Shown here in pieces: positions 25,201-28,200 of a stretch of DNA of 64,000 bases. Source of the DNA: Megaleporinus macrocephalus (Eukaryota; Chordata; Actinopteri; Characiformes; Anostomidae). Positions within the stretch are counted from its first letter, which is position 1. Every line of letters starts with the position of its first letter. A program made the translations under genes and the position numbers. The notes below the pieces were generated by a model. It saw nothing but the letters and a program-made list of their open reading frames with translations. It was not told where the DNA came from and did no database searches. Location of the stretch: contig CM038702.1 of the NCBI GenBank assembly GCA_021613375.1, positions 29,653,349-29,717,348 on the forward strand, written 5' to 3'.

Positions 25201-28200
25201 CCTAGTTGGTTGCCATGGTATCCCATGTGGTTGCTTAAGTGTTGCTAGGTAGTTGCTATGTTATCACAGGTTGTTGCGAGGGTGTGGCTAGGTTGTTGCT
25301 GTGGTATCTGGTACCTTAAATCCAGTGGTACCTAACAAAATAGTTTATTTGAGGGACAGGTGAAATTAAGGCATCAGTGTATTGAGTCATCAGTGCATTT
25401 GAAGGATCAATGGAATGCATTTTTTGATGATCATACAGAAGCAACATGTAACAGAAATAAAAATGAAAAAAATCTTATTTTATGAGCTAGGTCCTCATAC
25501 CACGTAGTTAGTAGTTACACTATTTAGTTTTAATTATACTAGCTACTTGCCTTCAATTCCTTTGGTATAAAAATCCTTTACAGCTTGGAACAGTAGGTTT
25601 CTCCACATAGTCTGCTGTTTTCATTGCTGTTGTTCCATTGCCATATGTAAATCATGTAATTGTTTTATATATTTTTTTTTTATTAATTAGGACTGTTTTT
25701 TAACAGTATATTTTTTATACACTGTTCTGCCTGTCAGAAGGGGAAGAACAGTGCACAGGAAAGAGCACAATAAAATCTTTATAGAATAAAGGCTAAGTAA
25801 GCCTGTTTCAATATGGGTTGATTACGCTGAAATGGATGAATGAAAAACTTTGGTTGACTCTCACTGGTGTTTTGTGTGTGTGTCTTTGAGCTCTGATTTC
25901 TCATTTTAACTTTAAAGAAACAAAAGTTGGTAAGATTCTCTATAGTGTTTCATTTAATTGCACAGATAGAACACTTCAGCAAGTGGGCACTCACTTTTGT
26001 TGTCTTAAAATTAAATTGCATTAATGTGCTACAAAAACAGTGGACTCTCTGTGAAATTATATGATGGAGCTCTCTTGTCGCATGTAGTGGCAAACCTGCT
26101 AAGCTAATCCTTCTTCAAAATCATTTATTTTGAATGAATCACAACATGTGCAGTAACCATTTTTGATGCTCACACCCTCACACTATGTCAAGTGTAAACT
26201 TCACGATCAGGGGCCACAGGTCTGCAGAGTGCTCCAAAGAAAGGCTTATCAACTACAGTAACTAATACACCACTTATTGACTAAAGGTAAATCTGACATA
26301 CGCCAGTCATTTTCAGTCTTGATAATTTCAGGAGAAAATAATTAAATGAAAGTTAAATTCTCATGGGAGCAAGATTTTAAATAAAAAAGGTGTCTTGTCT
26401 GGATTGTATCCACTGCTTCTGAAATTTGCATTGCTACAAATCTACTCAAAACAAAATCTTAGTGTAGCATTTGGCCAGCATTTCTGGAGTGTGAGGAGTT
26501 GATGAATGTATGTTTTTTCAACATTGTTGTTTTGTGTGTTTGATAGAAAGCGGATTTGGCAGTGGCTCCCTTGGCCATAACATACATGAGGGAGAAGGTG
26601 ATTGATTTCTCGAAGCCTTTCATGACACTGGGCATCAGCATCCTGTACCGCAAGCCCAACGGCACCAACCCCGGTGTCTTCTCCTTCCTCAACCCTCTGT
26701 CTCCTGATATCTGGATGTATATTCTGCTGGCTTACTTGGGTGTCAGTTGTGTGCTGTTTGTCATTGCCAGGTAACATGTCAAGTTTAGTGGAGAAAAATA
26801 TACTGTGAAGATGAAGCTTGAAGATGAGATGTTATGCAGTTTTCAGCTAATAATTTCAACTTTAATTGACATACTGAGCACATATAAAGTCATTTATTTC
26901 ACTTAATATAGCACAGAACCTTCATTTCCTTTTTTGCTTATTTGCTTGTTCATAAATATTTTTTTTCAAAGCTCTCTCAGCGTTCTTCCATTCTTCCTCA
27001 AAATTCGTCCATTGTCATTTTTTTACTGGAATAACTGGAACAAGTCTGTTGCGATGCTTCTCTGTTTTTCCTTCTTACTACATTAATAAAAGGAAAGATA
27101 AGAACATAATATAAAAAACATCTTTATTTATATATTATGTTTAATTTCAGTCACAAAATATCATGTTTTATGTAAGTGGCTGAACAATTAGAACAATTTA
27201 TGTTTAGATACATGAATGAAATTACAGCATACAAACATTACCTTTTTTGGGCCCTTGCCTCTTCATTTCTACTGCCATGTCTATTTTATTCTCTTTGAAA
27301 TCTGTATTGTTTTACTGCACACTGACCTTATTAATAATTATGGTAACTGCATTACATACATGAGGCCATGATGACATTTTTAATTCAATACTAGTCCATG
27401 TATATATTCTTTATTATATAGTGTCAAATGTAAGTATTTGAATTAGAACAGCACACATTAACCACAAGACTTTTGAGTGCTGTGTTGTTTCTTAGACCCT
27501 CAGAATAATTGTGGTTAAAGCTGTTTGACTCTCAGTGTTACTGGTATTATGATGTTTAAACAGAAAAGCCACAACTGTCGCCTAAGTTGGTTCAGAATAT
27601 GCATAGAAAAGTACTGTATTTTGATGGAGAGTAATAGGTAAGTTTGCTTTTCAATTCATAGAGAAGAACGTTTAGCATTTAACTAATTTTATTCATAATG
27701 CGTAGATGGTTTTATTAGAAAAGCACAGCAATTTTTTCTGTTTTACTGCTTTTCTTTCCACATCACCAAACCAAATAAAAAAAATGCAAATACAAAGAGC
27801 AATTACAATTTTACCTAACTAATAGTGGCAGACCAGTGTTAAAATTCTAACAAAAAAAAACCAGATGCAAACACGCAAAGATGTATATTTTTATAGCTAT
27901 TAGCTGCTTCAGAAAACCTCTTGAAGAAGTTCTGAAAACAAGATGCTGTGACATTTTTAGCCATGAGGGTGATTGCTGTGTGGGTACAGACACCACAGTA
28001 AGGCTGACATTTGTAAACTCATTTGTGTAAACACATTTGTGTCCACTTATTGTCTGCTCTTAACACATTTACCTTGTTGTTCTTCCCTGTAGTCAAGTTT
28101 ATTTATATAGCGCTTTTTACAACGATGTTGTCTCAAAGCAGCTTTACAGAGTTTTGAAAACAGACAGTTACAACATATATCCCCCAGTGAGCAAGCCAGA

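Follow-up and report, generated by a model that had tools for sequence, protein, structure and literature searches.

ADARs require their RNA to be double-stranded, and a site in an exon whose complement lies in an intron must be edited before splicing (PMC6724681, in its accessible text). The same source places GRIK2 among the genes with an exonic site and an intronic complement, with the site unnamed there. Three GluK2 recoding events, I567V, Y571C and Q621R, belong to the editing set conserved between human and mouse (PMC4053846, in its available text), and the supplementary table of that study is said to give predicted complementary regions for the conserved sites. In human reads, as far as the available account goes, molecules carrying only I567V are rare (1.2%), indicating that editing at the two M1 sites is coupled (PMC8257547). 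For the Q/R site of mouse Grik2, an editing-complementary sequence (ECS) is described 1885 nt downstream (PMC5654063, available portion), and deletion of the ECS region in mice removes most Q/R editing of the gene (PMC10504484, likewise). Among fishes, the accessible text of two reports gives zebrafish grik2 as edited, with the sites unnamed (PMC4018279, PMC4670233), and in the first of these an antisense oligonucleotide directed at the ECS of the gria2-alpha Q/R site reduces editing, and there are hints of an obstructive effect of the structure on splicing. A literature search over partial texts, supplements aside, recovered no published description of a complement to the M1 sites; we do not claim on this basis that none has been published.

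Using sequence comparison and RNA folding we examined a 64,000-nucleotide stretch of Megaleporinus macrocephalus DNA (hereafter the window, numbered from its first letter), in which the exons and recoding codons of a kainate receptor gene are placed as follows:

26547..26770, forward strand: grik2 exon for the pre-M1 region and M1, GluK2 residues 509-582 plus 2 bases of the next codon, with AG on the 5' and GT on the 3' side
26721, forward strand: adenosine of the I/V site, codon ATT at 26721-26723, residue 567
26734, forward strand: adenosine of the Y/C site, codon TAC at 26733-26735, residue 571
30240..30358, forward strand: grik2 exon for the M2 pore segment, GluK2-like when joined to the neighbouring exons, with AG on the 5' and GT on the 3' side
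30353, forward strand: adenosine of the Q/R site, codon CAA at 30352-30354, residue 621 by counting back from the match of the M3 exon
31951..32168, forward strand: grik2 exon for M3 and the first part of the second ligand-binding half, from a protein match

The translation of the M1 exon is identical at 73/74 residues to the GluK2 of a solved structure, a construct with I567 and Y571, while another GluK2 construct of known structure departs from this one, across those 74 residues, at 567 (V) and 571 (C) alone. The genomic sequence thus carries an A in the known recoding codon of the orthologue at both residue 567 (ATT) and residue 571 (TAC). In protein searches the M1 exon scored best against GluK2 (149.3 bits, as compared to 142.5 for GluK1 and 135.8 for GluK3, with two GluK2 constructs falling slightly under GluK1), and the M3 exon gave GluK2 a narrow lead (138.9, 137.3 and 135.5 for GluK2, GluK1 and GluK3). 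Judged by sequence similarity, the gene is GluK2 (grik2), which outscored GluK1 and GluK3 for each of the two exons searched, in agreement with the initial annotation. The introns that follow the M1 and Q/R exons are 3.5 kb and 1.6 kb in length, and in the former a 141-base unit occurs twice in tandem (28323-28601).

Folding of 26540-27650, and of a larger segment comprising the M1 exon and the entire downstream intron (26548-30239, 3692 nt, with partition function), revealed an extended duplex between the exon end and the intron, whose parts are:

26715..26782, forward strand: arm of the M1 duplex formed by exon and donor, from the predicted folds
27525..27604, forward strand: intronic arm of the M1 duplex and proposed ECS, with its core at 27570-27604, from the predicted folds and duplex energies
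26771..26772, forward strand: GT of the 5' splice site inside the M1 duplex, its G paired with a probability of only about one half

In the minimum-energy folds of both segments 33/37 exon positions of 26715-26751 pair with 27570-27604, six of them as G-U pairs (26718, 26729, 26730, 26732, 26738 and 26741), which is precisely the count of the initial annotation. The unpaired core positions are a 2-nt bulge at 26727-26728, 26733 (opposite 27588) and 26743 (opposite 27578). According to the partition function over exon and entire intron, 29/33 core pairs have a probability of at least 0.97, with a minimum of 0.57. The claim that the duplex spans both recoding adenosines is borne out, with codons that are 567 and 571 by GluK2 numbering: A26721 pairs with U27598 at a probability of 1.00, and A26734, adjoining the unpaired U26733, pairs with U27587 at 0.97. 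A second block had been proposed between 26754-26764 and 27552-27563; such a block is indeed present, but the folds place it at 26753-26764 with 27549-27569. Beyond what had been annotated, the helix runs on across the last exon bases and the donor, 26765-26777 pairing with 27535-27546, and ends at 26782/27525, for a total of 62 pairs; the editing codons, rather than the donor, are where its longest uninterrupted blocks are found. A search of the entire window against Rfam yielded no match at gathering scores, and scans of contigs from viruses and prokaryotes, guided by protein, recovered no relative.

To what extent this complementarity exceeds chance was assessed by several measures. By energy, the best duplex of 26700-26771 in the intron reaches -60.0 kcal/mol, as opposed to -44.9 +/- 3.2 for dinucleotide shuffles, none of 300 of which attains that value. 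When the exon window is centred on both M1 sites the figures are -56.8 and -44.0 +/- 3.2, with 2/400 shuffles as good. Counting exon-intron pairs per 100-base block in full folds, M1 has 62, while 150 shuffles give at most 56 and 100 native segments at most 41. A partner scan over 3196 window segments placed its top three hits all inside 27521-27640 (-59.7 to -52.0; next -51.4). The cruder pair-count score of a local alignment is not decisive: M1 scores 61, which separates poorly from shuffled introns (44.6 +/- 4.9, highest of 200 shuffles 64) and from shuffled exons (mean 49.8 +/- 6.7, highest 69). The view that the complementarity is unlikely by chance is borne out by most controls, the pair-count alignment and the 2/400 shuffles of the centred segment being less favourable, and the energies and folds predict a stable duplex between an exonic site and the neighbouring intron. 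A stronger downstream partner was found for 1/100 native 72-base segments, at 41000 (-65.1), inside an array with inverted arms. That array (41014-41769, six arm pairs being reported within 40800-42000) could form long hairpins.

Published human and pig GRIK2 primers match the window inside the helix at 19/20 and 20/20 bases, and at 17/21 just upstream. We considered whether this conservation shows the helix to be under constraint, and rejected that reading, given that a distant grik2 exon is equally well kept and the primer match inside the helix therefore does not discriminate. The latter comparison is with 20480-20499, where a pig GRIK2 primer matches at 19/20 bases and where an upstream grik2 exon thus probably lies.

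The inclusion of the donor in the duplex alters its predicted accessibility: the mean unpaired probability of the nine bases of the M1 donor is 0.12 with the ECS and 0.60 after its removal in silico. At the Q/R donor the equivalent in silico removal causes only a small shift, from 0.38 to 0.44. The freeing of the M1 donor in the model makes a race between editing and splicing plausible at M1.

The Q/R exon, for which the initial annotation had no counterpart, also has a possible partner:

31188..31269, forward strand: candidate ECS for the Q/R site, which a duplex run on a larger stretch pairs with 30326-30400

In a fold of 30240-32170 (exon, intron and next exon) 30337-30374 pairs with 31225-31265 at probabilities of about 0.35-0.66, and the Q/R codon is modelled in a small internal loop. 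For the 72-base window centred on A30353 (30317-30388) the best partner reaches -52.3, as against -40.9 +/- 3.3 for shuffles, 0/400 of which attain it, at a place that had been found beforehand: the fold and a scan of 30320-30391 found the partner first, and the shuffle test with the near-identical 30317-30388 came afterwards. A window ending at the exon end missed the partner (best -43.7), and the pair-count local alignment of the Q/R exon gave no signal (34, under the shuffled mean of 37.1). Since two prior scans missed the partner, and its place was seen ahead of the shuffle test, the Q/R case is weaker than that of M1. With it, the window offers a candidate intronic partner for each of the three recoding codons of GluK2, and the presence of such a partner for the Q/R exon of the same gene counts in favour of the M1 duplex being an editing guide.

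Human and mouse both edit I567V and Y571C, and an intronic complement is an established feature of GluK2 Q/R editing, so the M1 duplex is most naturally read as an ADAR substrate. We propose, with a probability of roughly 0.85, that 27525-27604 is the ECS of the GluK2 M1 sites and that the resulting fold-back helix is edited by ADAR prior to removal of the intron. In the unspliced transcript the ECS, which lies 853 bases away from the Y/C site, would fold back on the M1 exon's end to form an imperfect helix with about 62 pairs. An ADAR, for which ADAR2 is our guess, would then bind this helix and deaminate A26721, turning Ile into Val, and A26734, turning Tyr into Cys, ahead of intron removal. 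As the donor is covered by the helix, splicing would probably wait until the helix opens, thereby allowing time for editing. The coupled editing of the M1 sites in human reads fits a single helix over both. The proposal is favored by the appearance of the helix in two independent folds, exactly over two codons edited in human and mouse, and likewise by its excess over shuffles and native segments, the stated editing of zebrafish grik2 and the freeing of the donor on in silico removal of the ECS; against it stand the poor pair-count separation and the 2/400 shuffles as good as the native sequence of the centred segment. The earlier suggestion of an ADAR substrate controlling two recoding events is partly supported: the gene, the codons and the duplex are confirmed, the latter with an excess over most controls, and its formation in cells and its editing by ADAR are inferred. 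A more elaborate version, in which the M1 helix is at once an editing guide and a splicing gate that buries the 5' splice site, with separate guides in two successive introns setting all three recoding events before exon joining, is a rather doubtful possibility.

The explanations that compete with an ECS differ in which of these observations they accommodate. A 3.5-kb AT-rich intron might by chance hold a good match, devoid of any role, to the exon end, and the at least one of 200 shuffles that beats M1 in the pair-count alignment, together with those two that reach the energy of the centred window, are compatible with this; we nevertheless deem it improbable in light of the energies (0/300 shuffles), the block pairs (0/150 shuffles and 0/100 native segments), the top place among 3196 segments in the window, and a position exactly over two known editing codons. 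A second idea is that the helix is mainly a splicing device hiding the M1 donor, with editing a by-product or absent. While the covered donor, unpaired at 0.12 with the ECS versus 0.60 without it, is what such a device would show, the longest unbroken blocks are over the codons, which are edited in mammals, and not over the donor, making this a very improbable account.

Alternatively, the intronic arm could be left over from a partial duplication of the exon in inverted orientation and have no present role, since the reverse complement of 27570-27604 is exon-like along its entire length. However, when both stretches were searched against the window no additional copy reached a meaningful E-value, BLASTN did not produce the alignment of ECS and exon, and 6/33 of the pairs are G-U, so that we regard this origin as the least probable of all. 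An ECS for the two M1 sites hence remains our preferred interpretation.

If the sites are edited in this fish, this would support the view that GluK2 M1 editing is ancient among vertebrates. The analysis also supplies exact coordinates for the guide predicted for each of the three recoding codons, in introns of a size suited to minigenes, and the covered M1 donor offers a direct test case for competition between editing and splicing at the M1 sites.

Compared with the described systems, on the accessible text of the reports cited above, the M1 duplex concerns the same codons of the same gene as the mammalian GRIK2 M1 sites, where editing has been measured, whereas here it is predicted. The candidate at 31188-31269 has the same layout as the mouse Grik2 Q/R system, namely a site with a far-downstream partner in the next intron, at a distance of about 890 nt as opposed to 1885 nt in mouse; the mouse system is described as including editing inducer stems. 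Zebrafish gria2-alpha is likewise a fish glutamate-receptor transcript combining an exonic site and an intronic complement, but it is an AMPA receptor gene in which the Q/R system has been shown experimentally, while here the gene is that of a kainate receptor and the M1 duplex is predicted. The locus is thus predicted to be a new instance of the intronic ECS type known from glutamate-receptor editing, to which it would add a covered splice donor and a candidate partner for the Q/R site.
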